From positions 434,001-498,000 of the forward strand of contig CANLQL010000003.1 of NCBI GenBank assembly GCA_947493265.1: a DNA stretch of 64,000 bases. The letters are read 5' to 3'. Under the pieces are notes generated by a model that was not told the DNA's origin, searched no databases, and worked only from the letters and a program-made list of their open reading frames with translations. This document shows, piece after piece, positions 24,337-53,762 of the stretch (its first letter is position 1; every line of letters starts with the position of its first letter). This DNA is from an uncultured Litoreibacter sp. GTDB lineage: Bacteria > Pseudomonadota > Alphaproteobacteria > Rhodobacterales > Rhodobacteraceae. Made by a program: the position numbers and the translations under genes.

Positions 24337-24702
24337 TCAGACAATCCAGCCAAAGAGATACCCCGCCGCGAGCGACCCCAGAACAGCAAGCAGAAGGTAG
24401 AGCACGAATTGCTTCAGTTTGAGAACCGGTGCAATGGCCATAGCCCCCCAAATGCTCACGACACCGCCCGATATAAAGAAGCCCATCGCCGCCCCCTCTG
24501 ACATGCCATTGTCGATCAAACCCCGCGTCATCGGCAGGGCAGCGTAGCCATCAATATACGCCGGGGCACCGACGAAGACTGCAGCGGGTATCGCCCACCA
24601 TTGGTTCTCGCCAACATAGGCAGCGAGTGTACATGGTATCAGAACCGCGTTCAGCGCATATTCCGCTGCAAAAAAGTAAGGTGGCGGACAGACAGTCCGC
24701 AT
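24337..24702 (-). pseudogene. 5'-truncated ArsP-like permease gene abutting the left att site
   Basis: The 121-codon frame encodes only the C-terminal third of a permease of the ArsP/DUF318 type: F-V-G-A-P-A-Y-I-D-G-Y-A-A-L-P-M near residue 43, then G-A-A-M-G-F-F-I-S-G-G and two final membrane spans. Family members have roughly 300-350 residues. The first dozen codons are not permease sequence: they read through the 28-bp tRNA-derived repeat (24668-24695) from an ATG just inside the island. Because the frame continues only to the tRNA 3'-end sequence, the missing 5' part was lost before or during an integration event at this tRNA. Likely non-functional. Confidence 0.75.
24668..24695. repeat. 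Left attachment site of the genomic island (28-bp direct repeat)
   Basis: The 28 bases from GCAAAAAAGTAAGG through GGCGGACAGACAG are identical to 53735-53762, where they overlap the 3' end of tRNA-Ser(GGA). Flanking bases differ on both sides, so the repeat is exactly 28 bp. It contains the last 14 bases of the tRNA gene including CCA and the T-run that follows it. Confidence 0.9.
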
Positions 24703-25070
24703 CTTTATCTGCTTATAATAATGATAGTAAATGTATTTATATTAGATTTTAGAGCTCATACCACACTCACGCAAGCAATCCCTGTCTGCCAGCGGCTTTC
24801 CTGAACGCTTCCTCAATTCAAAAGAAAAATTGACAGCCTCCTGCCGCCAAGGACTGCTGTCCGGGCTCTTCGTGGTCTTTCTCATCGTCCGCTCCTCAGT
24901 GGCTACTATGAGCAACAAACCCTCCCTTAGCAAATACGCCTAATTGGACCCATATGCGCTGACGCCCGACAACTCACGGCAGACATTCGACAGCCAAAGG
25001 CTGGTCTAGAACATCAACAGCAGCTCAGCGGACAAAGCGTGAATTCGCTGCGTCTGCGCGAATGTCTGAT
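24703..25070. other. 368-base AT-rich left end of the island
   Basis: Between the left repeat and the first exporter gene the sequence is AT-rich at first (TTATAATAATGATAG) and holds only a short frame, listed separately. Island ends often carry integrase arm-binding sites, but I cannot identify them by eye. Confidence 0.4.
24742..24885 (-). CDS. Possible 47-aa small protein
   Basis: An ATG at 24885 is preceded by GAGGAG with 6 bases spacing and opens a 47-codon frame rich in Lys, Arg and Ser. There is no recognised domain. It lies at the island end and runs towards the att site. The good ribosome site is the only support; it may equally be chance. Confidence 0.25.
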   Translation of the reverse strand: MRKTTKSPDSSPWRQEAVNFSFELRKRSGKPLADRDCLRECGMSSKI

Positions 25071-25805
25071 TTAGACGTTGCGCCAGAGCAGGGCTAAGGC
25101 AGAGCAGATTGCAAGCCCAAGCGCCCAAGGCCGGATAGCACCACGCTCAAACCGAACTGCGAGTGGCTTCGATAGCGACAGAGCCACAGGGACCAGTGGT
25201 GCAAGAGAGGTAGCGAAAGCCACCTGCGCCAGCGTCATTACCCCAGCTACCGAAAGCGCAATGATCGCAACGAGCGTCCCAAATCCATAGAAGGCGTTTT
25301 GTGTCGCAGCCGACCTCCGCGTTTCTACTTTCGAATAAAGTATGGCCATTGGTGGCGCACCAATGCCAGTCAAGGTTCCCATGAAACCACCAACCGCACC
25401 CGCAACGAACAGAGAGCTGGTCGTGATCGGGAACGAAAGACCCATCAGCGTAAGGGCAACCGCAAAAAGAACGATGAAGCCCACGATTATTGCCAGCGCA
25501 TCGGTTCCAACCACCGCCGTTGCGATATAGGCGGCGATGCCCGCACCCAGAATGCGTCCTGCAAAGCCAGGCGGGAGGTCTCGCCGCTTGACGGCCCCCC
25601 GTGTGTTCAGAATCGCACCCGAGCCAATGACAAAGCCGACAAGAAGCACAGTCCCTGGAACCCACTCTGGTGCAACAAGTGCCATGACCGGGGCCGCAAA
25701 CATCCCGTATCCCGCGCCGGACAAGCGTTGAATGAGAGTGCCGAAGAAGACCGTGATAGCACAGATCATCCACGGTCCGAATGCAGGCAGTAAGGTTTCA
25801 GGCAT
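25071..25805 (-). CDS. TauE/SafE family sulfite or organic anion exporter, first
   Basis: The 244-aa membrane protein has about eight spans and the TauE/SafE repeats: R-L-S-G-A-G-Y-G-M early and G-A-V-G-G-F-M-G-T-L-T-G-I-G-A-P-P in the second half. Members export sulfite, sulfoacetate or related anions, often after sulfonate breakdown. The frame continues upstream to 25991 but that part is Cys/His-rich out-of-frame sequence of the neighbour; the ATG at 25805 is chosen. It follows the second exporter by 35 bases in the same operon, after a GntR-controlled divergent promoter. Confidence 0.88.
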   Translation of the reverse strand: MPETLLPAFGPWMICAITVFFGTLIQRLSGAGYGMFAAPVMALVAPEWVPGTVLLVGFVIGSGAILNTRGAVKRRDLPPGFAGRILGAGIAAYIATAVVGTDALAIIVGFIVLFAVALTLMGLSFPITTSSLFVAGAVGGFMGTLTGIGAPPMAILYSKVETRRSAATQNAFYGFGTLVAIIALSVAGVMTLAQVAFATSLAPLVPVALSLSKPLAVRFERGAIRPWALGLAICSALALLWRNV

Positions 25806-25840
25806 ATATTCGAGTTCTTTCTTAAGGAAGGAGAGAGCTA

Positions 25841-26617
25841 TCAGACGACGATGAAGATGACAGTCATCACTGCCCCAATTGCAATGATGACCCCCCGCAG
25901 CACGTCGATCTGTGTCATGCGACGGACAAATTTCGACGTGACATAGGCACCGCATATATTCGCAACAGCCATAGGGACAGCGGCATCCCATGCGATCAGG
26001 TCGGCAGTCATGAATGTGACCACGGAGAGGATTGACAGGATGGACGCAAGCAGGTTCTTCAACCCGTTTATCCCATGAATATCCCGGTAGCCCTGCAATG
26101 CGAGCGCAGCGAGCAGTATGATACCTAAACCGCCATTAAAGTACCCTCCGTAAATCGTGACCACGAGCAGGGCAATTATTGCCATCGGGGCGGAATGCAG
26201 GCCAACACTGCCACCTTCCGTCATCTTTTGAAGTCGCGGTGCATAAGCGAATAACAGCGTTGCAATCAACAAAAGCCACGGAACGAGCGCGAGAAACGCA
26301 TCTGGCGTTGTGATGATGAGAAGCACAGCGCCTAGAATACCGCCGACAGCCGCGATCATGATGATAGAGCCAAGGCGCAGCGCGCCTTCAGCGCGAACAT
26401 CGTGACGATAGGCCCATGCACTGGCGATGTAGCCGGGGACAGCCATCGTTGTCGCCGTCGCATTCGCGACGACTGGCGGAATGCCAACCCATATCAGGAC
26501 CGGCAACGTGACGAAGGTTCCTCCACCTGCAACAGCGTTCAATGCCCCACAGAGAAATCCAGCAACAACGACGACAATGAATTCTACCACGGCAGTTCCT
26601 TCGACCTCTTTCGACAC
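25841..26617 (-). CDS. TauE/SafE family sulfite or organic anion exporter, second
   Basis: The 258-aa protein has the classic N-terminal repeat F-L-C-G-A-L-N-A-V-A-G-G-G-T and P-V-V-A-N-A-T-A-T near residues 40-58, and about eight spans. Two unlike members side by side suggest either a heteromeric exporter or two substrates. The GTG at 26617 gives the longest frame; a GTG at 26590, preceded by GAAGGAAC, is a credible alternative start nine codons in. It is divergent from the GntR regulator. Confidence 0.9.
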   Translation of the reverse strand: MSKEVEGTAVVEFIVVVVAGFLCGALNAVAGGGTFVTLPVLIWVGIPPVVANATATTMAVPGYIASAWAYRHDVRAEGALRLGSIIMIAAVGGILGAVLLIITTPDAFLALVPWLLLIATLLFAYAPRLQKMTEGGSVGLHSAPMAIIALLVVTIYGGYFNGGLGIILLAALALQGYRDIHGINGLKNLLASILSILSVVTFMTADLIAWDAAVPMAVANICGAYVTSKFVRRMTQIDVLRGVIIAIGAVMTVIFIVV

Positions 26618-26636
26618 CTGCTATCAGTGTGATACA

Positions 26637-26647
26637 TTGGTCTCCAA
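26637..26647. promoter_or_regulatory. Candidate GntR operator between the exporter genes and the regulator
   Basis: TTGG-TCT-CCAA is an inverted repeat of four bases with a 3-base spacer, lying 18 bases before the chosen regulator start at 26665 and 19 bases before the longest exporter start. FadR-subfamily regulators often bind short palindromes of this layout. The half-sites are short, so chance is possible. Confidence 0.4.
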
Positions 26648-26664
26648 ATTGGTCTGGAATATTC

Positions 26665-27378
26665 ATGCGATACACGAATGCAGCCACAGCACTTGCACAG
26701 CTTCGGCACCTTTTGCAGACAGATGGGATGGCCGTTGGTGATAGGTTGCCGTCCGAGCGGGTGTTGGCGCAGAGATTTTCATGCAGCCGCGAAACTTTGC
26801 GACGTGCAATTCTTGTGTTGGAGCAGGAAGGCGAAGTCTGGCGTCATGTGGGCCAAGGCACATTCTATGGTCCACGGCCAGATACAGCTCCGCTTAGGGA
26901 AAACCTTTTGGTGCAGGCTACATCGGTTCAGGAATTGGTGCAGGCACGGTACCTGATCGAGCCTGCGGTTGCAGCGGAAGCTGCACGTAGAGCGACCATA
27001 ACAGATATTGCGAAGCTCAATGAGTGCGTTTTGGCCGGGCGCACAGCACCGGACAGGTTTGCGTGCCAGAAGGCAGATGATAGCTTCCACAGAACCATTG
27101 CAACGGTCGCTCGAAATTCGATCTTATCTTCAATCCTCACATTCCTTTCAGATGCGAGGCGTCGATCAACATGGCAGACGCAGTGGGATCGCACGTACCG
27201 TCACATCGGCATCAGAGAGTTCAAGGAGCAGCACAGCGACCAGCATCAGCGGATCGTTGATGCGATTGCAAACCACAATCCTGAGGAAGCCGAAGCCAAA
27301 ATGAAAACCCATCTGGAAGCAATAATCGAAGCGCTTCAGCTCCCGCCGGGTTCGCCATCGTTTCTCACATCAGGTTAG
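26665..27378 (+). CDS. GntR family (FadR subfamily) transcriptional regulator
   Basis: The 237-aa product has the GntR winged helix (D-R-L-P-S-E-R-V-L-A-Q-R-F-S-C-S-R-E-T-L-R-R-A, roughly residues 26-48) and a FadR/FCD C-terminal helical domain with A-R-Y-L-I-E-P-A-V-A, D-D-S-F-H-R-T-I-A and a late H-Q-R-I-V-D-A-I that supply the metal-binding Asp/His set. The frame extends to a GTG at 26629; the ATG at 26665 fits the domain start better. It is divergent from the two TauE/SafE genes and probably represses them in the absence of an organic acid. Confidence 0.9.
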   Translation: MRYTNAATALAQLRHLLQTDGMAVGDRLPSERVLAQRFSCSRETLRRAILVLEQEGEVWRHVGQGTFYGPRPDTAPLRENLLVQATSVQELVQARYLIEPAVAAEAARRATITDIAKLNECVLAGRTAPDRFACQKADDSFHRTIATVARNSILSSILTFLSDARRRSTWQTQWDRTYRHIGIREFKEQHSDQHQRIVDAIANHNPEEAEAKMKTHLEAIIEALQLPPGSPSFLTSG

Positions 27379-27794
27379 CTGACATTCGTGCTTGACGCAG
27401 CATTTGGAAAAATGGGGCGTTGCCGCCAATGAATATGACGCGGCATCTGGCCAGCCAGCTGAGCCGGATCGGATGAGGACGGCCCAGAGCCGACCTTTGA
27501 CTGTTACTAAAGATGCTGGGGTCGCAGCCCGCATTGCCGCCATTCGCTGCAGGAGCAGCATCCAAGCCTGTCTGAATTCACTGTTTGCGTGACGCAGTTG
27601 CTATTCCCGACAGTCGCTCAAAGGTCCGCTTAATAGTGAGCTGATGCGAATAGATCGAGTCTGGATAGCGGTGTCTTGGCAAGCAGGACTGGGAAAAAGC
27701 AGTGTTCTCAAATACTGTTCACCTCGCCGATGAACCTTCCAAATGTTGATGTGAACTCGGACGCAATCGCTCGTGCTTTCGGCAGAGAGAATCC
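27379..27794. other. 416-base gap with decayed sequence
   Basis: Short overlapping frames on both strands (27365-27592) have no ribosome sites or domains. The sequence looks like a gene or repeat remnant, but I cannot name a parent. Nothing else is seen. Confidence 0.4.
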
Positions 27795-28967
27795 CTAAGG
27801 CGAAAACTTCATTAGGCGTGCCTTGATACTCTGCAAAAAGGTCGTGATTTCCTCATCAAAAATCAAGAATATGATCAGCATTATGATCGGCACTATAAGA
27901 GCGCTTAACTTTCTGAACCAAATCTCAAACTTGTCTGTACGTCTAAACCCGAGGTGCGCCATTAGCTGCTCTGTATCTTTGAAATCAAACTCGGTGGACA
28001 AGTAATCAAAGTTAGGCATTTTCATCGGGAAATACGCTATTTCACCTGAGTAGAAGGGATGGTTTAGCTCTCGTTCTTTCTCAATGACTTCGGAATTGAT
28101 CGGGACTATGTGGCAGTCCTCGGTACGAAACATTCGTGGCCGTCGCCAAGGAAGGAAGATTTCTTTGCTAGGGAACCAATAACCGCTTGGCCAGTTTCCT
28201 AACCAGAAAGCATCTATGTAGCCGTCAAGGTTAATGGACTTTATGGGAATTTCTATCCCTATTTCCTTGTACTCGCCGTCCTTGTCGGTCATGCGCTTTT
28301 TTCGTGGGGCATTTGCGATGCTCGCTATGTCTCCGTCGACCACGGAAAGAAAAAAAGTCTCGGTTTTCGGTTCTATATCTTGTGCTGAAACGCTTATGTG
28401 TAGAGGTACGAAGTTTTGGATGGCAGGTTGTTTGGCTATAAGGTCAAAAACTGTATTTAAAGTCATCTCAATTGGGATTTTTTTGGGAAGCTTTGCTTTT
28501 GTAAGGTCAAGTCCCTCCCCCAGTGTTGCTTGTTGCTTCGGACCAAGCTGATCAATGCAGTACTCAACACGTTTTTTCTTCAAGTAGCTGGATATCCTTC
28601 TAGACTTAAAGAACTCGTGTTCCAGCATCTCACTCATGCCGTGTTCGGACAAAACCTTTGTGATCTTCGACTTAGGCATACAAAATTCATCCGGAACATC
28701 GATGGTGACATTTATGTTTTGCAGAGTTTTTTTCGACGTGTTGCGTATCGCGTATGCCAGTTGGCAGTGCTCAATCGTTGATCCGGGCTCTAGCGAAGTT
28801 AGATACACCAGATGCCGCGGGTTTTTGGTAAGCCTTCGCGAACGAACAGACTGCTCTCCAACTCTAACTGAGAAATTTGGGTGAGAAAGTTGTCGTGACC
28901 GTAGGGCGGTAAAAACGGCTACAGCCAATCCCAATATGGCTACTGCCGTGCCTAAAATAAATTCCAT
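27795..28967 (-). CDS. Membrane-anchored 390-aa protein of unknown function
   Basis: I do not recognise this protein. It starts with one hydrophobic span (residues about 4-22, E-F-I-L-G-T-A-V-A-I-L-G), has a long soluble middle of beta-rich character (I-R-N-T-S-K-K-T-L-Q-N-I-N-V-T-I resembles an Ig-like or CARDB-type strand pattern), and ends with a second span (I-V-P-I-I-M-L-I-I-F-L-I-F) and a basic tail. Both ends would thus be membrane-bound with the body on one side. Base composition is visibly more AT-rich than the neighbours, with Lys/Ile-rich codons. It is alone, flanked by gaps on both sides, which fits a recent acquisition within the island. Confidence 0.8.
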   Translation of the reverse strand: MEFILGTAVAILGLAVAVFTALRSRQLSHPNFSVRVGEQSVRSRRLTKNPRHLVYLTSLEPGSTIEHCQLAYAIRNTSKKTLQNINVTIDVPDEFCMPKSKITKVLSEHGMSEMLEHEFFKSRRISSYLKKKRVEYCIDQLGPKQQATLGEGLDLTKAKLPKKIPIEMTLNTVFDLIAKQPAIQNFVPLHISVSAQDIEPKTETFFLSVVDGDIASIANAPRKKRMTDKDGEYKEIGIEIPIKSINLDGYIDAFWLGNWPSGYWFPSKEIFLPWRRPRMFRTEDCHIVPINSEVIEKERELNHPFYSGEIAYFPMKMPNFDYLSTEFDFKDTEQLMAHLGFRRTDKFEIWFRKLSALIVPIIMLIIFLIFDEEITTFLQSIKARLMKFSP

Positions 28968-29584
28968 GCAGACCTCGTGTGGCGTGGTGGTGCGACCTTA
29001 GTTTTGGCTCGACGGCCCCCGCAAGGGATTTATCGACTCTATTATTTGGTGTTCTTCACTAATGCGGTGAGCGCTTTTCGGATCGAACGAGAGCCTGCGG
29101 GCTTCCTTAGCTGTGGCTCGGAAGCGCGTTGATCGACGTTCCGTGCTTCGGGAGAAGCCTGTGTCTTATACAGCCTCTGCGCAAGAGACAATTGGAAAGC
29201 CTAGTGATACTTCATAGTTGGCGTCGGATAGTTCCACGAGGTATTAACCACTTGTCAAAGACAGGACGTTCGTACTTGTTGCAGCATCGGTTCGTTTGGG
29301 CTCAAACCGGACCTCGTAGGCAGCGCGGCATCTTGGCCATAGAGCGTCCCCATCACGGCCCAAACCGGACTTTGGCCGGGATTAGCGGATGCTGCACGTG
29401 CAGCCCCTATACCGGACATTCGATTTACGTGCGTAGACGTCGTTAGCCCGTCGTTTTTTGGCTCACCAGGATGGCCATGCATGCTCGTGCAACATAGTAG
29501 CGGTCACCTTTTCGACCTTCGTTGGCGCGGCGCTTGGCTCCGAGTTTGTACGAATAGCATGCGATCCCGGTGTGATCCCCGCCG
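28968..29584. other. 617-base gap with degenerate sequence
   Basis: No frame here has a start, ribosome site and domain together. Two near-repeats of CAAACCGGAC are seen (about 29304 and 29361). The stretch reads as decayed DNA between the 390-aa gene and the XRE regulator. Confidence 0.4.
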
Positions 29585-30358
29585 TCACAATGCCTGCTGA
29601 GCGGTCACGCCGTCCGCCAATTCTTTAAGAGCTTGCTCGGTTTCCACGTCCATCGGGAAGTAGAGTTCGATCTTCAGCGATCCGAGTGCGACGTCTTCGG
29701 GCGTCCCGAATTGAGCGATTGTCGCGAACAAAGAGAGCCTTTGATCGCCCTGAACGACGATCGCCGGAATGACGGGTGTTCGGGCGCTGTCAATCGGTTT
29801 GGGGGCCTTCTCAAGATGCGCAATGACCGGACCAAACTCCGGAACGCCACCCTCAGCAGCGCTCTCGGTTCGCAACCGCTTCGCGGCGTGATGGGCGACC
29901 TCTGGCCAGTTTTCCACCACGGATGGAAGCGCGTCGGACACCATCAGGTCCAGCAGGCTGTCGCCGACACCGACCCCGAAGGACCAGAAAAGTGCCAGTG
30001 CGGCAGGGTTTGCCATGCGGATTGTCCAGAGGCGATCAACGGCGAGGCCGGGCATGGGCATGTGATTGGCGAGCGTCTTTTCAATCGCGGCGCGAACCGG
30101 GTCCATTTCTTCGGCGGTCCAATCCGCAGACCGATACCGCGCGGCAAAACCGGCAGCCGTGAGCATTTCGTTCCGGGCCTCCAGCGGAACTTCCAGTGTC
30201 TCACCTAGCCGCACGACCATTTCGCGACTTGGCCGCGCCCGGCCCGTTTCAAGAAACGACAGATGGCGAGAGGAAATGCCCGCCTCGTTCGCCAAGTCGA
30301 GTTGCGAAAACCGCCGGAGGTTTCGCCAATGGCGCAATGTGTCGGGGAAGGCTTGCAT
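29585..30358 (-). CDS. XRE family regulator with MmyB-like ligand-binding domain
   Basis: The 257-aa protein starts with an XRE helix-turn-helix (F-S-Q-L-D-L-A-N-E-A-G-I-S-S-R-H-L-S-F-L-E-T-G-R-A-R-P-S at about 17-44) followed by a C-terminal PAS-like MmyB domain with the marker N-P-A-A-L-A-L-F-W and later E-L-Y-F-P-M-D. MmyB-type regulators bind small ligands, probably fatty acids. The ATG at 30358 is chosen because upstream codons to 30403 lack domain sequence. It is divergent from two small membrane genes and may control them. Confidence 0.88.
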   Translation of the reverse strand: MQAFPDTLRHWRNLRRFSQLDLANEAGISSRHLSFLETGRARPSREMVVRLGETLEVPLEARNEMLTAAGFAARYRSADWTAEEMDPVRAAIEKTLANHMPMPGLAVDRLWTIRMANPAALALFWSFGVGVGDSLLDLMVSDALPSVVENWPEVAHHAAKRLRTESAAEGGVPEFGPVIAHLEKAPKPIDSARTPVIPAIVVQGDQRLSLFATIAQFGTPEDVALGSLKIELYFPMDVETEQALKELADGVTAQQAL

Positions 30359-30468
30359 GTCCGGAAGGTATACGCCGCATCCTGAGCTGTCACTTACCTC
30401 CAAGGTAATTGCTGAGGCCCCCCGGGATTCTTATCAAAGGGGCGAAACGCAAATGGAGTGTGCAAGAC

Positions 30469-30896
30469 ATGTTCGGCCACGCAGCACATAAGTTCTGGAT
30501 GAAATTCTCGGGCGCAGCGCTCATAGGGTTCGGGATATTGGGTTTTTTCGGCACGATGCCGGCGACCAACGAGCCGTTGCGATGGGGCCTCGACTTGCTG
30601 TCGTGGCCGTTGGACGGCTTCCCGTCTTACGAGTCGCGCGAGATATGGTTCTTGTCCGCACTGTCCGGCGGCTTCCTCGCCGGCTGGGCGTGACGATGTT
30701 CTGCGTGTCGCTCTGGCTCTACGACCTTGATGGCGAGCGCTGCCGCAAGACGGTTTTTGCGGGGTTGCTTGGCTGGTTCTTCGTGGACAGCTCCGGGTCG
30801 ATCACCTCGGGCAATTGGGAGAACGCGGCTTGGAACATTCTCGTTCTAATCATATTGGTCGGCCCGATGTGGCGACCGGCTCAGCAAACAACCTAA
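30469..30896 (+). pseudogene. Small membrane protein gene with a frameshift near 30690
   Basis: Two frames join into one plausible protein of about 140 aa. The first (from ATG 30469) gives F-W-M-K-F-S-G-A-A-L-I-G-F-G-I-L-G-F through S-A-L-S-G-G-F-L-A-G-W and then stops at 30693. The second frame continues at once with G-V-T-M-F-C-V-S-L-W-L-Y-D and ends R-P-A-Q-Q-T-T at 30896. A single missing base in the run GGCTGGGCGTGACG explains the break. About four membrane spans result if joined. It could be a true mutation or a sequencing error. Confidence 0.65.
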
Positions 30897-30914
30897 GAAA
30901 GAGGGAAATGCACC

Positions 30915-31253
30915 ATGGCACAGTTTCGCCTGCTCCTCATTGCGATCACGGTTGTGATCATCGTGTTCACCATCGCCGCCGTTGCGAACGACGGGTGGAA
31001 CCTCCTGCCGCACTTCTTCGGCTCGATCATTGCGCTCACCTGGCAAGGACAGTTCAACGTTGACTTCACAACCTATCTGATCCTATCGGGCGTCTGGATG
31101 GCCTGGCGCGGCGGCTTCACAGGTGGGAGTATCGCGCTCGGCCTGTTTGCGCCGCCGTTGGGCATTCTGTTTTTCGCGCCGTATGTGATTTACCTCATTG
31201 GCCGCTCCGGCGGTGACCCGAAGAAACTACTTCTGGGGGTTCATGCCGGCTGA
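30915..31253 (+). CDS. Small four-span membrane protein, unknown function
   Basis: The 112-aa product is almost entirely hydrophobic: spans near 5-23, 32-50 (less clear), 56-66 and 72-95, with W-M-A-W-R-G-G-F-T-G-G between. An AGAGGGAAA ribosome site lies 8 bases before the ATG. It follows the frameshifted membrane gene by 18 bases and is probably its operon partner. No family recognised. Confidence 0.7.
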   Translation: MAQFRLLLIAITVVIIVFTIAAVANDGWNLLPHFFGSIIALTWQGQFNVDFTTYLILSGVWMAWRGGFTGGSIALGLFAPPLGILFFAPYVIYLIGRSGGDPKKLLLGVHAG

Positions 31254-31369
31254 TTTGCAATATGACGCTCTCGTAAGGTGCGGCCCTAAGCCGCCGTTGG
31301 TCACGGTTTATGAATTCTCAACTTGCAGCCCGCAAAGCGAACAATCATCCAAGATGTGAATTCGCGTCT

Positions 31370-31804
31370 TCATATGTGCTTCTTGAGAAAGTGCCTGCAA
31401 TGATGGTCTGGGAAGTATCCTGTGCCGTTCTTCAATACTCCGAATTCTTCAAACCCCAACGACCGGTAGAAATGTAGCGCGCTCAAGTCCGAAGTATCCA
31501 GCCAAACGCTATGGCATCCGATTGCTCTCGCCTGGTCTATCGCTCGCTCGACAAGGCCACGCCCGTGACCGTTCTTACGACTCTGCGCAGCGACCCATAG
31601 AACTTTTATGAGCAACCAGCCATAAGATGTGGACCCGACGAGACCTCCGATCAGAACACCGCTATTGTCCAACAGCTCCAGCGTGATTTGTTTGTTTTCA
31701 CTTTGCTCAGACGTTGACCGCAATTCCTCCAGAAGACTAAGTTCAAGTTGATTGGCGACGCGAGGATCTTCTGTGGTGCAGATAGTGACATTGCTGGCGG
31801 GCAT
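31370..31804 (-). CDS. GNAT family N-acetyltransferase
   Basis: The 144-aa protein has the GNAT core: L-L-I-K-V-L-W-V-A-A-Q-S-R-K-N-G-H-G-R-G-L-V with the acetyl-CoA pyrophosphate loop (R/Q-x-x-G-x-G/A variant N-G-H-G-R-G), A-I-G-C-H-S-V-W-L-D-T and A-L-H-F-Y-R-S-L-G-F-E-E. It follows the lyxose isomerase stop by 4 bases and so is the last gene of the sugar operon, although a role in sugar use is not obvious. Acceptor unknown. Confidence 0.88.
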   Translation of the reverse strand: MPASNVTICTTEDPRVANQLELSLLEELRSTSEQSENKQITLELLDNSGVLIGGLVGSTSYGWLLIKVLWVAAQSRKNGHGRGLVERAIDQARAIGCHSVWLDTSDLSALHFYRSLGFEEFGVLKNGTGYFPDHHCRHFLKKHI

Positions 31805-31808: not shown

Positions 31809-32450
31809 CTATATCAACCTTTCCGCGTAATCGCTGACCAGCAGATGTTTCGGCGCGACGTCTTCTTCAATAGAGGCAAAACGGCCAATGGGCTCTCGGA
31901 AGACATTGTCGGTTTCGTCGTCATTGACCGTCGAGACCTCACCGATCAAAACATCGCCACCTTCCCCCCAAAACGCATGCCAGTCACCGGGGCGCAGGGT
32001 TACGCTTTCACCCGGTTTGAGCACAAGTTTCTCTCCGGGGCCGTAGTCGCGAAGGATGCCATCGCACATCACTTGCCCGCCCCGATCCTCGGCGCAATTG
32101 CCGTCATCGTCCGAGCCGTACAGCTCAACCACCAGATCAGCACCTCCCCGATTGATGATGTCCTCGGCTTTGATGACATGGGTGTGTATTGGCGACAGCT
32201 GGTCGCGGCGCGAGATCAGGAGTTTTTCCGCGTAGCACATGCCTCCGCCGCCTTGCAGGTCGGATAGTATCCCGTTGCGAAGGGTGAACAGAAACAACCC
32301 CATCTTGTCAAAATTTCCAGCACCATAATCGGTGATATCCCATCCACAACGCGCATCAATCAAATGGCGGGCAGAAGCCGCATTGACCCGGAACTCTTCG
32401 GGCGACCAATAGGCGAAAGGCGGTAGCGCAAAGCCGAAGTTCCGTATCAT
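31809..32450 (-). CDS. D-lyxose (D-mannose) ketol-isomerase family protein
   Basis: The 213-aa cupin protein matches the D-lyxose isomerase family: L-L-I-S-R-R-D-Q-L-S-P-I-H-T-H with the metal-binding H-x-H, K-A-E-D-I-I-N-R-G-G with the metal Glu, and R-P-G-D-W-H-A-F-W with the final His. Known members interconvert D-lyxose/D-xylulose and D-mannose/D-fructose with Mn(II). Its place in an ABC sugar operon with a glycosidase suggests that mannose, lyxose or a related sugar is released inside the cell and isomerised. Confidence 0.85.
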   Translation of the reverse strand: MIRNFGFALPPFAYWSPEEFRVNAASARHLIDARCGWDITDYGAGNFDKMGLFLFTLRNGILSDLQGGGGMCYAEKLLISRRDQLSPIHTHVIKAEDIINRGGADLVVELYGSDDDGNCAEDRGGQVMCDGILRDYGPGEKLVLKPGESVTLRPGDWHAFWGEGGDVLIGEVSTVNDDETDNVFREPIGRFASIEEDVAPKHLLVSDYAERLI

Positions 32451-45954: not shown

Positions 45955-45983
45955 TCCAGCGCGTCCCCCGCTTTGCTTATGAA

Positions 45984-46012
45984 AGCGCCCCACCTGTCGC
46001 TGGCGGGGCGCT
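45984..46012 (-). terminator. Intercistronic hairpin between tctC and tctA
   Basis: AGCGCCCC (45984-45991) pairs perfectly with GGGGCGCT (46005-46012). It is 13 bases after the tctC stop on the - strand and lacks a strong T run. Likely reduces transcription into the permease gene. Confidence 0.55.
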
Positions 46013-46025
46013 CAACAAGCAAAGC

Positions 46026-47132
46026 CTATTTCAGCGAAACGCCATACTTTTCTTGCAACCAGTTCACCACGAAAGCCTTCGCTGCCTCAGGCACCTGAGT
46101 TGCACTAGCCAAAGCAGTTTGGGCCTTATTACCAGTCATCTGAGGGTATTTGCCGAGACGCGCGCCGGAAATCTCTGCAAAGTCCGCGCGGGCCTTCACG
46201 TCCTCAAAGGCTTTGGTATAGGTCACGATTGCATCGTTTGACGCCCCGTTTGGCAAGAACACCATTTTTTGTGCAGGGAAGCCCGCCACGAAAAAGGCTT
46301 TCCACGCATCCCATTTCTCACCAGATGTTTCGCAGCCATCAGTGGCCTCGCAAACCTCTTTAAAGGTTGGGATATCGGGGAATGTAGGGTCGCGTACGAT
46401 GTTGCCCGCGTCATCCAACGAACCCCAAGTCATCATCGGCACAGCTGTGCCTGCTTCCACCAAAGGGGTCACGCCTTTAAGGTAGGAAGACGAGGTCTGG
46501 TAGTCGATATTTGCCTCACCGCGCTCGAACATTAGGCGGCCATCGCCGCGTCCCTTGATACCCATCACGCTTTCAACGTTCAGGCCAAGCATTTCCCATG
46601 CCAGCGTCGGCACAAGGTCAAGACGGGTCGCACCCTGGTTACCGTAGATGAAATCCTCACCCTGCAAACCAGCCGCATTCATGCCGTCCATCTTTGCTGC
46701 CATTTCAGGTGGTAGGTAGGCCACGCCGCCGGTGCCTGAAGCCAGAACAACATTCCAATCAGCATAATTATACTTCACGCGTGGATCGCCCAACAGGAAT
46801 GGAAATTGAGTAGATCCCGAAGATCCAAAGATAAGGGTACCGTCCTCATAGGACTGCTCTTGAAAGAAGTTTGCACCCTTGGTGGAGCCGGCACCCGGCA
46901 TAAACTTCACAACGACCGTTGGCTGACCGGGCAAAGCCTCGGACAGAAGCGGCGCATAGAAGTTCGCCCACTTGGCCGACCCACCAGTCTCAGAGAACGG
47001 AATGATCCATTCGACGGTCTTTCCCGCCAAATCAATCCCGTGGCCTCCCGCGTTTGCTTGCAAGCCAAAAGACGCAGCCGCTGCGGCGACAAGGCCAAGC
47101 GCCGCACGACGAGTTGTTTTCAATTTAGACAT
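46026..47132 (-). CDS. tctC: Tripartite tricarboxylate transporter binding protein (TctC/Bug family)
   Basis: The 368-aa protein begins with a twin-arginine-like signal peptide (K-T-T-R-R-A-A-L-G-L, cut near residue 28 after A-N-A) and has the Bug pattern: V-E-W-I-I-P-F-S-E-T-G-G, V-V-V-K-F-M-P-G-A-G-S-T-K-G and G-S-S-G-S-T-Q-F-P. The ATG at 47132 follows GGGAGGAAAAC. It is longer than most TctC proteins (about 320), with an added stretch around residues 260-290 containing C-E-A-T-D-G-C-E-T. It is divergent from tctDE, which probably induces it. Confidence 0.9.
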   Translation of the reverse strand: MSKLKTTRRAALGLVAAAAASFGLQANAGGHGIDLAGKTVEWIIPFSETGGSAKWANFYAPLLSEALPGQPTVVVKFMPGAGSTKGANFFQEQSYEDGTLIFGSSGSTQFPFLLGDPRVKYNYADWNVVLASGTGGVAYLPPEMAAKMDGMNAAGLQGEDFIYGNQGATRLDLVPTLAWEMLGLNVESVMGIKGRGDGRLMFERGEANIDYQTSSSYLKGVTPLVEAGTAVPMMTWGSLDDAGNIVRDPTFPDIPTFKEVCEATDGCETSGEKWDAWKAFFVAGFPAQKMVFLPNGASNDAIVTYTKAFEDVKARADFAEISGARLGKYPQMTGNKAQTALASATQVPEAAKAFVVNWLQEKYGVSLK

Positions 47133-47267
47133 GTTTTCCTCCCTGGAAATGTCACCCCGTCCTCCCGCGGCGGAGCATACATAAACAAAAACCACACGTT
47201 CAGCGCGCAGTTGATCTTCATAAACTGACCTGCGAACCTTGCATGAAACTTGCAGCGGCGAAAAAAC

Positions 47268-47942
47268 ATGCGGATCACGTTGGTCGAAGACAATATCGGG
47301 CTCTCGAAGGGCATCGCGTACCGCTTGCAAGATGCGGGCCATGCGGTCGATGTGTTGCATGACGGAAAGGAAGCGTCCCAGTTTCTGGCGACTGATACAT
47401 CGGATCTCGTCATCCTCGACGTCAATCTGCCCGGCAAGGACGGGCTGGAACTCCTACGAGAGCTACGCGCCCGCGATGACCCTCGCCCAGTTGTTCTGTT
47501 GACCGCACGCGCAGAAATTAAAGATCGGGTGATCGGTCTGGATGCGGGGGCCGACGACTACCTCATCAAACCATTCGAGATGGAAGAATTGGAGGCACGG
47601 GTCCGCGCGCTTAGCCGCCGCAGAGCGGACAAATCCCGACAGGTGTGCAACATCGGGGTGCTACAATTTGACGTGGCCGCGCGCCAGTTAGCAGCGAACG
47701 ATGCGGCGCTGGATATTCCCCGTCGCGAGCTGTCTATCTTTGAATGCCTTATTCAAGCCAACGGTCGTCGCACGACCAAACAGGCACTCCTCGATCATGT
47801 GTACGGCATTGGCGCTGATGTCGAAGAGCGCGTGATCGAGGTCTATATCTCTCGTCTCCGTTCACGGCTGAAACCCTACGGCATCGAAATTAACTCGGCC
47901 CGCGGCCTTGGCTATAAACTTCAACACAAGCCCGGCACATGA
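47268..47942 (+). CDS. tctD: Response regulator, OmpR/TctD type
   Basis: The 224-aa protein has a receiver domain (acidic pair E-D at 7-8, phospho-acceptor Asp in V-I-L-D-V-N-L-P near 51, T in L-L-T-A, Lys in L-I-K-P-F) and a C-terminal OmpR winged helix (R-R-E-L-S-I-F-E-C-L, V-E-V-Y-I-S-R-L-R, G-L-G-Y-K-L). The ATG at 47268 is used rather than the upstream frame. It is divergent from tctC and overlaps the kinase gene (ATGA). Confidence 0.93.
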   Translation: MRITLVEDNIGLSKGIAYRLQDAGHAVDVLHDGKEASQFLATDTSDLVILDVNLPGKDGLELLRELRARDDPRPVVLLTARAEIKDRVIGLDAGADDYLIKPFEMEELEARVRALSRRRADKSRQVCNIGVLQFDVAARQLAANDAALDIPRRELSIFECLIQANGRRTTKQALLDHVYGIGADVEERVIEVYISRLRSRLKPYGIEINSARGLGYKLQHKPGT

Positions 47943-49306
47943 ACACGCGATCCCTCCGCCTGCGGCTGATTTTCATCATCTTGGTCCCCCTTTTGGTCAT
48001 TGCGGGGGTCGCGGCAGTCTGGCAACTCCAAACGACGACGAAACGCGCCGAAGAGATTTTTGATCGCGGCCTGCTCTCAGCCGCACTTGCCATTTCACGT
48101 GATGTCGCGCTGTCAAGCGGTGACGCGCTAAGTCCCTCAACACGGCGATTGGTGAACGACACGTCGGGGGGAGAGCTTTTCTATCACGTCTTCGCCCCTG
48201 ACGGTGTGTTTGTTACGGGCTACTCTACCCCTCCTGCATTGGGTGCTAACCTGATAATCGATCAGGAAGATCCCTACTATTATGACGCTGTGTATCAGGG
48301 TCAGGACGTTCGTGTACTCCGTTTTCGCGATGCAATGTCCGTGGACGGACTTACAGGTCTGTTCACCATCACTGTCTGGCAACCAACGCAGGTCAGGGCC
48401 TCCTTTGTTCAGGCGGTCGGCATGAGGGCTATCGGGGTTATCGCACTGATTGTGAGTTCGGTGGGCGCAATCGTCTGGTTTGGCGTCGGGCTGGGTCTGC
48501 GCCCACTTCTGGACCTGCAAGACGCCATTGCGAAGCGCAGTCCAAGCGAGCTTGAACCCATTCGACGCAGCGTCCCTGTCGAAGTCAGGGGCGTCGTGTC
48601 AACGCTCAATTCGCTACTCGACAGGGTGTCACGGCGGATCAGCTCGAAAGACGAATTTATCTCTAACGCCGCACATCAGCTCCGCAACCCCTTAGCGGGC
48701 ATCCTCGCTTTGGCGGAGGCGGTTGAAAGCGCACCAAACGCCAATGCAGCGAAATCCCGGAACAAGGAACTGGTCGCCGCGGCCCGTGACGCAACCCATC
48801 TGACCAATCAACTCCTCTCCTTCGAACGTGCCAGTGGCGATTCTCAGGAAACTCGGCGGGACCACGTTGACGTTTCGGAGATCATCGCCACATGCCTGAC
48901 CCGCCTTAACAAGGATATTGCAAACCGAGATGTTGAAATCATAATTGTCCCAACTTCAGAGCATCTTTTCCTCCAGGGTGACGCGTTAATGTTGCAAGAA
49001 GCCATTTTGAACCTTCTCAACAATGCACTGGTTCACGGCGGGCCTACATTGTCCCGGATTGAAGTTTCTGCGCGCCGCAGTGGAAAAAATATAGAGATTG
49101 CGATTCAAGATGATGGGTGCGGGATCCCGCCTGAAAAGCTCGATCAGGCGCGTGTCCGCTTCGGTCAAGCCGATGCAGGTCCGGGGAGCGGGCTTGGTCT
49201 TTCCATCGTTGAACGGGTTTTGGAAAACCACAACGGTCATCTCAGCCTTAGGCCGACAAGCGAGGGCTTGAGCGCTTTGATATCGTTGCCGTCCATCCAG
49301 TCTTAG
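47939..49306 (+). CDS. tctE: Sensor histidine kinase, TctE type
   Basis: The 455-aa kinase has an N-terminal span (about 10-30), a periplasmic TctE-type sensor domain with Y-H-V-F-A-P-D-G and D-P-Y-Y-Y-D, a second span near 165-185, a HisKA box F-I-S-N-A-A-H-Q-L-R-N-P-L-A-G, and HATPase motifs N-L-L-N-N-A-L-V-H, D-D-G-C-G-I-P and G-S-G-L-G-L-S-I-V. It is predicted to sense extracellular tricarboxylate and activate TctD. Confidence 0.93.
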   Translation: MNTRSLRLRLIFIILVPLLVIAGVAAVWQLQTTTKRAEEIFDRGLLSAALAISRDVALSSGDALSPSTRRLVNDTSGGELFYHVFAPDGVFVTGYSTPPALGANLIIDQEDPYYYDAVYQGQDVRVLRFRDAMSVDGLTGLFTITVWQPTQVRASFVQAVGMRAIGVIALIVSSVGAIVWFGVGLGLRPLLDLQDAIAKRSPSELEPIRRSVPVEVRGVVSTLNSLLDRVSRRISSKDEFISNAAHQLRNPLAGILALAEAVESAPNANAAKSRNKELVAAARDATHLTNQLLSFERASGDSQETRRDHVDVSEIIATCLTRLNKDIANRDVEIIIVPTSEHLFLQGDALMLQEAILNLLNNALVHGGPTLSRIEVSARRSGKNIEIAIQDDGCGIPPEKLDQARVRFGQADAGPGSGLGLSIVERVLENHNGHLSLRPTSEGLSALISLPSIQS

Positions 49307-49660: not shown

Positions 49661-51241
49661 TCATTTGAGTTTATCCATCCCCGCAAACTGTGAGACTCCT
49701 TCAAAAATACGGTCGAAAATCTCAAGCTTTATTTCATCGGGAATGGTTTCCAGGCTGACGCCCTTGTTTTCGGATATGCTTTCAATCACTTCTACGCGCT
49801 CACTATCGGATAGCCTACCGTAGTGTATCGTAGTAACTTCCCCTTCGTGTCCCATATTTTCCGAGAACGCGCGGCGCTGCATTTGCGTCAATTGAAGTAA
49901 ATCACGTTCTGCAGAGAGTGTGTGCCTGGCAGAATGTGGCGTGAAGTTGGAAACACAGTTTCGGCAGGCAATCGAAAATGCTTCGGTCACTGCATAGCCT
50001 GTTGACATCGGCGGGATTGGCGGACGGTTTTCGGCTCTAAGTTTTTTGTTGCCGTTAAGCCAGCTGCTGCTTGGGAACAAAGCATCCCGCTCATTAAACC
50101 CATCATCTTCCAACATCCGCACCCAATCGATGATTGTTTTTGAAAAGATTTCTGGTGTCGGGAACCAAGCGATAATCAGGCTCTTTCCATTCTTCGCTCG
50201 AACGACAGATGCGTCTTGGACAATGCACTTTCGTTCAATATTCAGGTGACATATTCTTAGCGATACCAACGTGTTCACTCTTAACGCACCAAGAAATGCT
50301 ATCGCAAAAATCGCGCGGGCGCGCAAATCCATGCGCGAGCGATCGGGCATGTTATTCAAAAGCTCTTCCGCCATTTTCATCGAAGGGTATTCCTTCGGCG
50401 CGGGAGGCAGGGGTTCGGAGTAAACTCGTTTCGGTGGTTCAAAGTATTGCGGAAGATCTCGCGGCAAGCGCTTGAACCCGTCTTGAATGATCAACCATTC
50501 AAAAAACCTCGTCAAATGCGAAACGATGTGGCGAATGGTTGACTTCGACCTTCTGGAGGCACCCTCCGCATTGAGCGACTTCACCAAACAATCGCGAACA
50601 TACGATACATCTGCGATTGTGTATTTTTCAAAGGGCTTTCCAGAATTTACCTGCTCGCAGAGCCGGATGGAGCGAAGGTAGGCGTCGGTTGTGCTTTCTT
50701 CAAATTTTCCGCAATAAAATTGCCATTTGTAAACGATCCGATCGTTTGCAGACCGAATAACTCGGTCAGTCTTGTTCGAGATAGTCCCAATACCACCGGG
50801 ACCTTGTTCGTTTTCTTCGTGTGGGCAGTCCACAGTGGTATTGGGATTTAGGTTTCCTGCTAAAAGGTCTCGATCTGCTTGTGTCGGAAACTTAAATGCA
50901 TAGCTGCCACATTCCGGACATCGAGCAACTAAGCGTACAGAGCCGTTTTTCTGTTGCCGCTCAAACATCGTACTCAACTCAGGAAAAACAGCAAGCTTGC
51001 AACCAAAGCACTTAAATTCTCCTGTTCTGAGATTGATCTTCGTTCGTTCAAGTCTTGCTTTGTGAAATCGGATCACCGCAGAGCCATTGAAAAGATAAGG
51101 TTTCGCGTTGTCTGTTGGCTCGAGTCCGCCTTTGACCCAGTTCGAAATTGTGTTGGCAGAAACATTAAAAAGTTTCTGCAAGTTTTCACCGGAATATACC
51201 CGGTGTGTCTTGGCAAGTATTCCTTTGTAGGAGCGGCTCAT
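49661..51241 (-). CDS. Tyrosine recombinase-like protein with N-terminal HTH and zinc-ribbon
   Basis: The 526-aa protein has a phage-integrase catalytic part at about 285-480: Arg321 in F-L-G-A-L-R-V-N-T-L-V, H436-x-x-R439 in T-P-H-S-A-R-H, His465 in M-G-H-E-G and Tyr474 in T-I-H-Y-G-R. The N-terminal third is unusual: a helix-turn-helix-like L-Q-K-L-F-N-V-S-A-N-T-I-S-N-W (22-36) and two C-x-x-C pairs (Cys78/81 and Cys108/111) forming a probable zinc ribbon. It is of low GC compared with chromosomal genes. It may be a second recombination factor of this island or the remnant activity of another element. Confidence 0.83.
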   Translation of the reverse strand: MSRSYKGILAKTHRVYSGENLQKLFNVSANTISNWVKGGLEPTDNAKPYLFNGSAVIRFHKARLERTKINLRTGEFKCFGCKLAVFPELSTMFERQQKNGSVRLVARCPECGSYAFKFPTQADRDLLAGNLNPNTTVDCPHEENEQGPGGIGTISNKTDRVIRSANDRIVYKWQFYCGKFEESTTDAYLRSIRLCEQVNSGKPFEKYTIADVSYVRDCLVKSLNAEGASRRSKSTIRHIVSHLTRFFEWLIIQDGFKRLPRDLPQYFEPPKRVYSEPLPPAPKEYPSMKMAEELLNNMPDRSRMDLRARAIFAIAFLGALRVNTLVSLRICHLNIERKCIVQDASVVRAKNGKSLIIAWFPTPEIFSKTIIDWVRMLEDDGFNERDALFPSSSWLNGNKKLRAENRPPIPPMSTGYAVTEAFSIACRNCVSNFTPHSARHTLSAERDLLQLTQMQRRAFSENMGHEGEVTTIHYGRLSDSERVEVIESISENKGVSLETIPDEIKLEIFDRIFEGVSQFAGMDKLK

Positions 51242-51325: not shown

Positions 51326-51532
51326 TTATTCAATGCCTGAGGGGCAAATCTTATTGGATTCCGCCCATACATTCAGATCGGAACCCTGATAGACGATCTT
51401 GCGCCCCAGCTTGTAATACGCTGGGCCTGTTCCCTTGTGCCGCCACTGACCCAATTTTTCCCGGTCACCGATCAGCTCCAGTTCTGGATCACCAAGAATG
51501 TAGCACCGAGTGTCGTCAAATAGTTTCGGCAT
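51326..51532 (-). CDS. AlpA-like / excisionase-family DNA-binding protein
   Basis: The 68-aa protein shows the MerR-like helix-turn-helix of AlpA and excisionase proteins: W-R-H-K-G-T-G-P-A-Y-Y-K-L-G-R-K-I-V-Y followed by D-L-N-V-W. Such proteins usually direct excision or regulate the integrase of P4-like islands. It is upstream of the 526-aa recombinase by 84 bases on the same strand. The frame begins at ATG 51532. Confidence 0.75.
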   Translation of the reverse strand: MPKLFDDTRCYILGDPELELIGDREKLGQWRHKGTGPAYYKLGRKIVYQGSDLNVWAESNKICPSGIE

Positions 51533-51616: not shown

Positions 51617-52069
51617 CTAATTTCGAGTTTTGTCCGTCCTTTTTTGGGAATCCAATGAGCGTTTCAGAGTTTTTATCGACACATCAAATCCGAATTGCGC
51701 AAAAATTTCATTGCAGGCCGTTTGCCAGCTTCCACGATGACCATCCGGGAACAATTCGTGATAGTACTTTCTTGCTTGTTGCTGCTTACCCGTTCTTCCA
51801 ATCTTGCGAGATTGATCAAAACCTAGAGTTATCTTCCATTCCGACTTTCGAATATTTCGCAATCGCCACTCTTTAGCTTGGCTTTCATCTAGGCATATTG
51901 ATTGACCAAGAAAATCTGGAACGTTCAACTGTGCATAGAACCCGCCGATCGCATCATCACACCAAGGCGGAAGTGACATAGGCATAGTGAACTTAAATCT
52001 CTCAAAACGATAAGGAAGGGTATGAAACGGTATCTGCCCTACATCCAGGGATCTACTCTTCCCGTTCAC
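51617..52069 (-). CDS. 150-aa island protein, unknown function
   Basis: No domain recognised. The sequence has a basic C-terminal half with helical character (R-K-I-G-R-T-G-K-Q-Q-Q-A-R-K-Y-Y-H-E-L-F-P) that could bind DNA. It is set between two other small genes in the integrase module (12-base gap to the upstream gene) and reads in the same direction. It may help replication or excision, but that is guesswork. Confidence 0.6.
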   Translation of the reverse strand: MNGKSRSLDVGQIPFHTLPYRFERFKFTMPMSLPPWCDDAIGGFYAQLNVPDFLGQSICLDESQAKEWRLRNIRKSEWKITLGFDQSRKIGRTGKQQQARKYYHELFPDGHRGSWQTACNEIFAQFGFDVSIKTLKRSLDSQKRTDKTRN

Positions 52070-52081: not shown

Positions 52082-52483
52082 TCAAAGCCGTATTCTCCCA
52101 TGAAGTTCGGGCCAAGGTTTGAAGTGGCTCGATCCCATTTGATGTAGCCAAAATGCTCCTTGACCTGCTTCTTCTGGATCTTGAGCGATCAATGTTCTTT
52201 CCAGCACAGTTGTTCGTTGAAAAAGTTTGGAAAAGGGATCAGAAAATTCTGGCCTCAGATTGGTTGCGACGCCATCCAGAGAACAAAACGACACCGTTTG
52301 TGGTTCCAAGCTCTTGAGAAATACGTCTTCCACGAAATCTGCGGGTGATCCGAATTCTACGATTGGTGAAAATCCGTCTTCTTGATATTTCTGCCGCGCG
52401 ATATAGGCGATTTCTTCGCCCCACTTCAGGACGAACGCGTGCCACAAATCTGCCAATGAAACGTAACCTTGAGGACTAAACAC
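52082..52483 (-). CDS. 133-aa island protein, unknown function
   Basis: No family recognised. The N-terminus Y-V-S-L-A-D-L-W-H-A-F-V-L-K-W-G resembles an aromatic-rich helical region. It overlaps the end of the integrase gene by 8 bases, implying one transcript integrase - 133 aa - 150 aa - AlpA-like - recombinase. Confidence 0.6.
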   Translation of the reverse strand: MFSPQGYVSLADLWHAFVLKWGEEIAYIARQKYQEDGFSPIVEFGSPADFVEDVFLKSLEPQTVSFCSLDGVATNLRPEFSDPFSKLFQRTTVLERTLIAQDPEEAGQGAFWLHQMGSSHFKPWPELHGRIRL

Positions 52484-53684
52484 TTAATTCCACCTTCTGC
52501 ATTTGAGTGTTGTCCGCAACGAACCCGGACCACCGCTCCATCAAAATACGTCGCTTTTCAAGCAGGTCAGACCGCGCATACGCGCGCTCGACATCCGACC
52601 CGACCTTATGGGCGAGGCTCATTTCAGCGACTTCACGCGGCGCATTGGCGGTCTCAGAGGCCCAATTGCGGAACGTTGACCGGAAGCCATGCACTGTGAT
52701 GCCTTCGACGTTCATCCGACGTAACAACATCAACATCGACATATTGGACAAAGGCTGATGCCGCTTTTGACCCTCGAAGACATATTGTGATTGCAACGCC
52801 TTTAGCGGCTCGATGATTTCCAGCATTTCTTCTGTGAGCGGCACGCGATGGTCTTCGCCGCCCTTCATGCGAATATCGGGACAGGTCCAGAGGCGTTGCT
52901 CAAAATCCACCTCATTCCACTGCATTCCCAACACTTCGCTGGTGCGCGATCCTGTAAGGCAGGTGAACATCAACGCTTTAGCTGACATTGCATTGCGGGT
53001 TTTCAGGTCGGCGTAGAAGGCCGGGACGTCTTTCCACTCCATCGCTTTATGATGCTTTGGTTTTGCGACGACTTTGGGCAGTACACCTGCGTCCTTGATC
53101 GCCGTCACCGGGTTTTCACCCTCGCGGAAACCTTTCGACTTCGCGACATCCAGCACCACCTTGATCCGCTGCGACAACCGTCGGGCCGTTTCATGCTTGC
53201 TGGTCCAGATCGGCGACAAGCACATCAGCACTTCCGGCTGACCAATACTATCCACCGGCATCTTCCCGATTTTCGGAAAGGCGTACTCGCGCAAGGTGTT
53301 GATCCACTGCTGCCCATGCTTGGCATTCTTCCATGTTGGCATCCGGTCAATATGCACTTGCTGCGCGATCTCTTCAAAGTTTGGAATATCCAATTTGGCA
53401 TTGTAGCGAGGGTTGAGGCCTTGTTTGGCCATGCGACGGTACTCAAGAGCCCGCTCGCGCGCTTGGTTAATCGTAACGATGTCTGCGCCGCCAAGACCGA
53501 AGTCTGTGCGCAGAGGCGCGCCCATCTTGTTCTTCTGACCTTTGACGACCACACGAACAATCCAGCGCCGTGCGCCTGAGGGGTCAACAATGAGATACAA
53601 CCCGTTCCCATCGCCATGGCGACCAGGCCCCAGATTCTCAACCAGCTTCTTTGTCAGCTTCCCAGATAGCGCCATTGCCGCCAA
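52476..53684 (-). CDS. int: Tyrosine-type site-specific integrase, P4/DUF4102 class
   Basis: The 402-aa protein has an N-terminal arm-binding domain (L-T-K-K-L-V-E-N-L-G-P-G-R-H-G-D-G-N-G-L-Y-L-I at 10-32, DUF4102 type), a central SAM-like core-binding domain, and catalytic residues Arg247 (T-G-S-R-T-S-E-V), His332 and Arg335 (H-G-F-R-S-T-F-R), His359 (L-A-H-K-V) and Tyr369 (R-A-Y-A-R-S-D). Integrases of this class insert at tRNA 3' ends, which agrees with its place 51 bases from the tRNA-side repeat. All catalytic residues are present, so it may be active. Confidence 0.95.
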   Translation of the reverse strand: MAAMALSGKLTKKLVENLGPGRHGDGNGLYLIVDPSGARRWIVRVVVKGQKNKMGAPLRTDFGLGGADIVTINQARERALEYRRMAKQGLNPRYNAKLDIPNFEEIAQQVHIDRMPTWKNAKHGQQWINTLREYAFPKIGKMPVDSIGQPEVLMCLSPIWTSKHETARRLSQRIKVVLDVAKSKGFREGENPVTAIKDAGVLPKVVAKPKHHKAMEWKDVPAFYADLKTRNAMSAKALMFTCLTGSRTSEVLGMQWNEVDFEQRLWTCPDIRMKGGEDHRVPLTEEMLEIIEPLKALQSQYVFEGQKRHQPLSNMSMLMLLRRMNVEGITVHGFRSTFRNWASETANAPREVAEMSLAHKVGSDVERAYARSDLLEKRRILMERWSGFVADNTQMQKVELSV

Positions 53685-53734
53685 GGCTATGTTGAAAACG
53701 CTAATGTGCCCTCGAAAGCGGCCTGATCAAACTA

Positions 53735-53762
53735 GCAAAAAAGTAAGGTGGCGGACAGACAG
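53735..53762. repeat. Right attachment site of the genomic island (28-bp direct repeat)
   Basis: Identical over 28 bases to 24668-24695. Bases 53749-53762 are the 3' end of tRNA-Ser including the encoded CCA; the rest is the T-rich stretch after the gene. The tRNA remains complete after integration. Confidence 0.9.

Follow-up and report, generated by a model that had tools for sequence, protein, structure and literature searches.

Did two catabolic operons that lie between identical repeats, one of which contains the end of a tRNA gene, arrive together on a mobile element? The question is raised by a 64,000-nucleotide stretch of DNA (the window) on contig C3 of a Litoreibacter-like marine alphaproteobacterium of the Rhodobacteraceae, whose genome as searched comprises 3.52 Mb in five contigs. 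The protein of the neighbouring mscS gene finds its best matches in Litoreibacter records, hence this placement of the host. A preliminary description of the window had proposed that everything between the repeats was acquired horizontally as one unit, next to a P4-type integrase at tRNA-Ser(GGA). Our analysis supports a P4-type integrative genomic island, about 29 kb long, at this tRNA, with operons acquired from within the genus and with a left edge that is a scar; we give this reading a probability of roughly 0.77. The island belongs to a known kind, of which it is a good if unexceptional example. It provides a worked case of a hotspot within one genus, at which sibling islands carry restriction-modification genes (in the relatives G003 and G014) and this one carries catabolic operons, and of carbon-use operons that cross between marine species, two of which have them at the same tRNA.

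The attachment repeat and the integrase

The direct repeat is exact over 28 bp (24668-24695 and 53735-53762, 29067 bp from start to start) and is the longest among the four direct-repeat families reported in the window. With equal base use assumed, about 3e-8 such pairs would be expected by chance in 64 kb. The right copy, attL-like and on the minus strand, consists of 14 bp of the tRNA 3' end including the encoded CCA (53749-53762) and 14 bp downstream of it, and tRNA prediction returned an intact tRNA-Ser(GGA) gene (53749-53838, minus strand). The 15-mer CTGTCTGTCCGCCAC, which is the tRNA part of the repeat plus one base, occurs twice in the genome, in the two repeat copies, and its reversed control gave no occurrence genome-wide. 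The left copy, attR-like and also on the minus strand, has GCGGACTGTCTGTCCGCC on the element side, an imperfect inverted repeat around TGTCT. The resulting core, GGAC-TGTCT-GTCC, is consistent with what the binding arms of a recombinase would look like.

The integrase (402 aa, 52476-53684, minus strand) matches the Pfam domains Arm-DNA-bind_3, Phage_int_M and Phage_integrase, and its reading frame starts 50 bp from the right repeat copy. Alignment by eye showed the R, H-x-x-R, H and Y of the tyrosine-recombinase catalytic motif all to be present. The segment thus has an intact P4-type tyrosine integrase adjoining a tRNA 3' end and a tRNA-end direct repeat at both borders, and up to this point the preliminary description is confirmed. 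No relaxase or conjugation gene, which would place the segment among integrative conjugative or mobilizable elements, was found among the 26 open reading frames (ORFs) between the repeats that were scanned with NCBIfam or Pfam, small ORFs beyond these lying outside the scan; we do not assign it to that class.

The repeat also bears on a reading in which only the recombinase segment at 49.4-53.7 kb is mobile, the cargo being native chromosome and the left repeat unrelated. The GC content drops to 0.46-0.51 in that segment, but it does so at 27-29 kb too, and the relative G015 holds the operons while lacking an intact integrase. Chance does not account for an exact match of 28 bp, however, no att-like copy lies near 49.3 kb (16-mer, up to three mismatches), and the cargo trees described below conflict with the core tree. 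We regard this reading as highly improbable.

The matching records, 293 from phages and 713 from plasmids, included no relative of the integrase with at least 60% identity. The genome itself encodes further integrases at C3:640251-641396 and C1:882737-883876, which are 44% and 34% identical to that of the island. A stretch at C2:248792-249200 is 77% identical to the tRNA-Ser region, with an integrase-like relic containing three stop codons about 110 bases off; it may be a defunct island of broadly similar type.

The tRNA-Ser(GGA) site in related genomes

We examined the tRNA-Ser(GGA) flank in 18 of 20 same-genus relatives (G011 and G019 were left out), at a depth of at most 20 kb and far less in some. 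An integrase with 81-86% identity directly adjoins this tRNA in five of them (G003, G005, G006, G014 and G018), and G015 keeps an integrase scrap of 37-38 aa at the same position. All four relatives with enough contig have a second copy of the tRNA end, 17.6-36.6 kb away: at 23.4 kb in G003, at 36.4 kb in G006, at 17.6 kb in G014, where the copy spans 14 bases, and at 36.6 kb in G018, where it has one mismatch. The contig of G005 stops after 1.9 kb, with its far copy and backbone outside reach. In all five far copies, that of the present island included, GACTGTCTG stands where the tRNA has CCCTGTCTG, and the two bases preceding the shared core are GA, as against CC in the tRNA. Past its second copy, G006 continues with the sequence that follows the tRNA in G017, to within about 50 bp, which makes a clean filled and empty pair for a sibling island. 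These siblings, with their related integrases and duplicated tRNA ends, bear out the proposal of an integrase-bounded island at a tRNA 3' end, and tRNA-Ser(GGA) is an integration hotspot within the genus. A scan of ten proteins from G003 and G014 identified a type I methyltransferase, specificity subunit and restriction enzyme in the slot of the former and a type IIG enzyme in that of the latter. This tRNA-Ser(GGA) site is not mentioned in the titles and abstract openings of the literature among the matches listed; the listed paper that contains both Litoreibacter and a genomic island deals with iodate reduction.

In the mechanism that we propose, the integrase would have joined an island-borne core, GGAC-TGTCT-GTCC, to the 3' end of tRNA-Ser(GGA), so that the tRNA stayed intact and a second copy of its end came to lie at the far side. 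The backbone, made up of the integrase, small ORFs, a candidate excisionase resembling AlpA and a second tyrosine recombinase, would then lie at the tRNA end with the cargo behind it. DNA past the left copy would have been lost or rearranged, before or after insertion, which would turn the left edge into a scar without a clean join. This integrase probably brought the operons in, and the island may still be able to excise. The arrangement resembles that of P4-type islands at tRNA 3' ends in that an integrase composed of arm-binding, core and catalytic domains adjoins the tRNA, the tRNA end is duplicated, an AlpA-like small protein is present, cargo lies beyond the backbone, and one site is used by several islands. 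It differs from them in the second tyrosine recombinase in the backbone and in the rearranged left edge.

Origin of the operons

A first core comparison with mscS, cysK and their neighbours gave mostly about 67-75% DNA identity, with 78-85% for the last gene against some genomes; because this stretch may evolve fast, the rpoB/rpoC region was used instead. The core tree was built from five proteins of that region (3290 columns, 12 genomes, proteins retained if present in at least 11 of the 12), and LG+G4 was the tree model. The cargo trees contain only loci obtained whole or nearly whole. The tricarboxylate tree has eight rows and omits weaker or partial matches in G002, G016, G004, G011 and G005; the glycoside tree has seven rows and omits partial operon matches in G013, G016, G007, G009, G004 and others.

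In the core tree, G015, G018, G006 and G017 form one clade (support 100/99) with this genome outside, and a tree forced to hold this genome with G015 was rejected (p 2.3e-5). The clade put to the test was picked after the core identities were already known. In the tricarboxylate tree this genome groups with G015, G018 and G006 against G017 (100/100), and in the glycoside tree with G015 and G018 against G006 and G017 (100/100). Forcing the cargo trees to hold G015, G018, G006 and G017 together was rejected for both operons (p 6.5e-52 for tricarboxylate, 2.3e-5 for glycoside). A pairing of this genome alone with G015 was not preferred by the test, but was not rejected either (p 0.46 and 0.083). 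G006 combines a tricarboxylate operon of this genome's type with a glycoside operon of G017's type. The conflict between core and cargo trees therefore indicates that each operon moved between lineages, at times without the other. For both, the cargo phylogeny differs from that of the host, as it would in an island, the 24.7-31.5 kb part lying outside the trees. Judged by these trees, import from within the genus by horizontal transfer is the explanation that we adopt for both operons.

The operon pair (31.6-49.3 kb) has the same order in G015 over 17.5 kb, beside the same tRNA, and this collinearity is the best evidence that the operons would have moved as a pair. At the amino acid level, identity to G015 is 91.5 and 92.7% for the cargo (92.7% for the glycoside operon) as compared with 91.1% for the core. 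The claim of acquisition as one unit thus stands in part: the operons appear to be horizontally acquired and their order is kept in G015, but their trees differ and the 24.7-31.5 kb part has no counterpart there. The preliminary description also held that a relative with the cargo in order and no integrase at this tRNA would refute the proposal. G015 literally fits those words; because an integrase scrap of this kind remains, we read its locus as a decayed island.

The comparison with G015 also bears on a different history, in which the tRNA-Ser flank is a variable hotspot whose cargo is swapped mostly by homologous recombination between resident islands, so that the integrase would have brought the backbone only and the operon pair would have come later. 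G015 has the operon pair of this genome and, adjoining it, the sarcosine-oxidase-like module of the G006 island, and the slot is filled by the type I and type IIG restriction-modification genes in G003 and G014. Ten operon loci in seven relatives (G018, G006, G017, G014, G007, G009 and G005) share no common DNA longer than 300 bp outside the operons. The exact att pair still encloses the whole segment, however, and no mark of a join was seen between operons and backbone, and we consider this history rather unlikely.

Observations that weigh against the island reading

Several observations count against the reading of the segment as an integrase-borne island with transferred operons. The raw DNA identity to G015 is about equal for the cargo and the rpoB region, at 82-83%; it is the trees that carry the argument for transfer. 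The glycoside operon of G015 shares more identity with that of G018 (94.6%) than with the one described here (92.7%), and direct transfer linking this genome and G015 is therefore not demonstrated. The operons lie apart and off this tRNA in G018 and G006 and are therefore movable without this integrase. The GC content of the operons (0.53-0.58) resembles that of the flanks, lower values being confined to 27-29 kb and 49-53 kb; base composition was accordingly discarded as a test of foreign origin for the operons, an outcome expected if the donors belong to the same genus.

Further observations concern the left edge. The left repeat copy abuts a 5'-truncated permease of the ArsP_1 family (24337-24702, minus strand), of which only the C-terminal third is left, by a C-terminal profile match, and which is broken at the repeat. 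An intact homolog of 345 aa is present in G004, and a search of the own genome with it returned only the fragment (76%) and a 41% paralog, with no match to the missing portion elsewhere in the genome. The empty site that the preliminary description had predicted, a single repeat joining the mscS side to the 24.6-kb side, was found in none of the 18 relatives read; at this tRNA the clean empty and filled comparison is the one for the sibling island, G006 against G017. The neighbour common to these two genomes, an operon with a DUF6505 gene, follows the tRNA directly in G017 and after the island in G006; it is 26 kb off in G012 and 62.6 kb off in this genome, with no att copy at that join. The 24.6-kb side can thus not be taken as undisturbed chromosome, as had been assumed. 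The tRNA neighbour varies within the genus as well, since G008, G002, G010 and G014 have another one, pieces of which are scattered in this genome. Because the neighbours differ between G017, G006 and G012 on one side and these four genomes on the other, the ancestral neighbour can only be conjectured.

The distances to the DUF6505 operon are what favours a further alternative, in which the insertion extends over all 62.6 kb separating the tRNA from that operon and consists of two accreted islands, with the copy at 24668 as an internal join and the outer att site lost. The DUF6505 gene, located in this genome at C3:425167, about 8.8 kb left of the window, is present in all 13 relatives read, and in none of them do this genome's next genes lie directly beyond it; G008 has the zinc-transporter set 10-13 kb away. 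Against this, the outer 33.5 kb contain no relative of the integrase, have no att copy at their far end and hold ordinary genes, e.g., a ZnuA-type zinc-uptake set and a Fur-family gene. This alternative, which is partly compatible with the 29-kb island, is possible in our view, if doubtful. A second island left of 24668 as such was rejected, for the lack of an integrase relative and of an outer att copy there. The DUF6505 join is a second variable boundary, and the att-bounded unit of 29 kb is set in a longer variable stretch, with DNA by its left end lost or rearranged.

The far end of the island (24696-31300), as defined from the ORF list, profile scans and the comparison with G015, in which it has no counterpart, contains two TauE-type permeases (25071-25991 and 25841-26617, minus strand), a GntR-type regulator (26629-27378, plus strand), a 390-aa ORF without match (27795-28967, minus strand) and an HTH/MLTR_LBD regulator (29585-30403, minus strand). 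The 110 bp at 24863-24972 are 89% identical to G018 C2:532974-533083, with no long match to their surroundings among the matches listed, and could possibly be the end of an insertion sequence, although this is a guess.

The backbone at the tRNA end

Between integrase and cargo, all on the minus strand, lie a 133-aa ORF with 30% identity to an ORF beside the G005 integrase (52082-52483), a 150-aa ORF without family match (51617-52069), an AlpA/excisionase-like protein of 68 aa (51326-51532; HTH_17 at 25 bits against a cut-off of 27) and a second tyrosine recombinase of 526 aa (49661-51241), whose N-terminus matches HTH_17 weakly (17 bits against 27). The AlpA-like protein, a candidate directionality factor, was not listed in the preliminary description; it is added here as an excisionase candidate, together with the second recombinase. 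It is 62-68% identical to counterparts in the G003, G006, G014 and G018 islands, and the same four siblings have relatives of the second recombinase (25-39% identical), so that both genes occur in this island and in all four siblings that could be examined. In G003, G006 and G014 a separate small gene corresponds to the N-terminal part of the second recombinase. The case makes excision of the island and the role of the conserved second recombinase testable.

In G003, G014 and Ruegeria sp. TM1040, restriction-modification genes come immediately after a small HTH-like protein and a second tyrosine recombinase; in the last of these genomes, AlpA comes first, then the regulator and the second recombinase, and right behind them a methyltransferase and a specificity subunit. 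In Legionella adelaidensis the HTH-like protein and the recombinase are found a few genes from a restriction-modification methylase. A Ruegeria conchae plasmid has the annotated order integrase, two ORFs, AlpA, HTH protein and second integrase, as in this island, but its P4-type integrase is about 28% identical. As a tentative and rather speculative proposal, there may be a family of two-recombinase islands in which a P4-type integrase serves the tRNA. An AlpA-like switch would accompany it, and the second tyrosine recombinase, either fused with a small HTH-like protein or paired with one, would mark, regulate or recombine an adjoining cargo slot where restriction-modification or catabolic modules swap across Rhodobacteraceae. 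In a PADLOC scan of ten proteins of the present island the matches were all weak: the mad1 model matched the second recombinase with 25 bits, and models containing an HTH matched the regulator. A defence function for the island's own ORFs was rejected on these grounds.

The catabolic cargo

The cargo was described as two catabolic operons with their own regulators, and a LacI-type regulator and a two-component pair were indeed identified. The glycoside operon (31809-39886, minus strand) encodes a D-lyxose/D-mannose isomerase, an ABC ATPase, an MGH1-like hydrolase, two permeases, a solute-binding protein and the LacI-type regulator. A GNAT acetyltransferase gene lies beside it (31370-31804, minus strand), and the collinearity with G015 stops within this gene. 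The hydrolase (33582-34859, minus strand), identified from profile and structure-database matches, matches the Thermus thermophilus mannosylglycerate hydrolase (PDB 2z07/4wva) near full length with 326 bits, and the mycobacterial glucosylglycerate hydrolases (5ohc) more weakly, with 179-186 bits. PMC6608630 gives 4wva as the Thermus mannosylglycerate hydrolase. With the NCBIfam glucosylglycerate hydrolase model the score was 295 of 550 bits, under the cut-off. Of the parts that a mannosylglycerate operon would have, a putative MGH-type hydrolase and a D-lyxose/D-mannose isomerase are present. A related operon on a Paracoccus seriniphilus plasmid also encodes a glycerate kinase, which was not seen in this glycoside operon. 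From these sequence matches, the substrate is probably mannosylglycerate or a close relative. Red algae make mannosylglycerate, as digeneaside. In G017 the two operons are adjacent to each other, about 160 kb from the tRNA.

The tricarboxylate operon (40097-47360, minus strand) encodes a TcuA-like FAD dehydrogenase, a D-2-hydroxyacid dehydrogenase, a 92-aa ORF, a 4-oxalomesaconate tautomerase, a TctA permease of 688 aa and a 444-aa ORF. The tautomerase and the TcuA-like dehydrogenase exceed their NCBIfam cut-offs. The 444-aa ORF has no Pfam match and is TctC-like by position, and a plasmid gene in the corresponding place is annotated as a tricarboxylate transporter. Tricarboxylates are the likely substrates of this operon. 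A response regulator (47250-47942) and a 2CSK_N sensor kinase (47939-49306), both on the plus strand, make up the two-component pair. Plasmid p3 of Sagittula sp. MA-2 (69% DNA identity over 66% of the query) has a TctA-type permease, tautomerase, D-2-hydroxyacid dehydrogenase, response regulator and kinase in matching order; it differs in that the stretch compared lacks a TcuA-like gene and includes one for a universal stress protein. The 92-aa ORF lies at 42540-42818, between the tautomerase and the dehydrogenase, and about 285 bp are missing at this place in G015.

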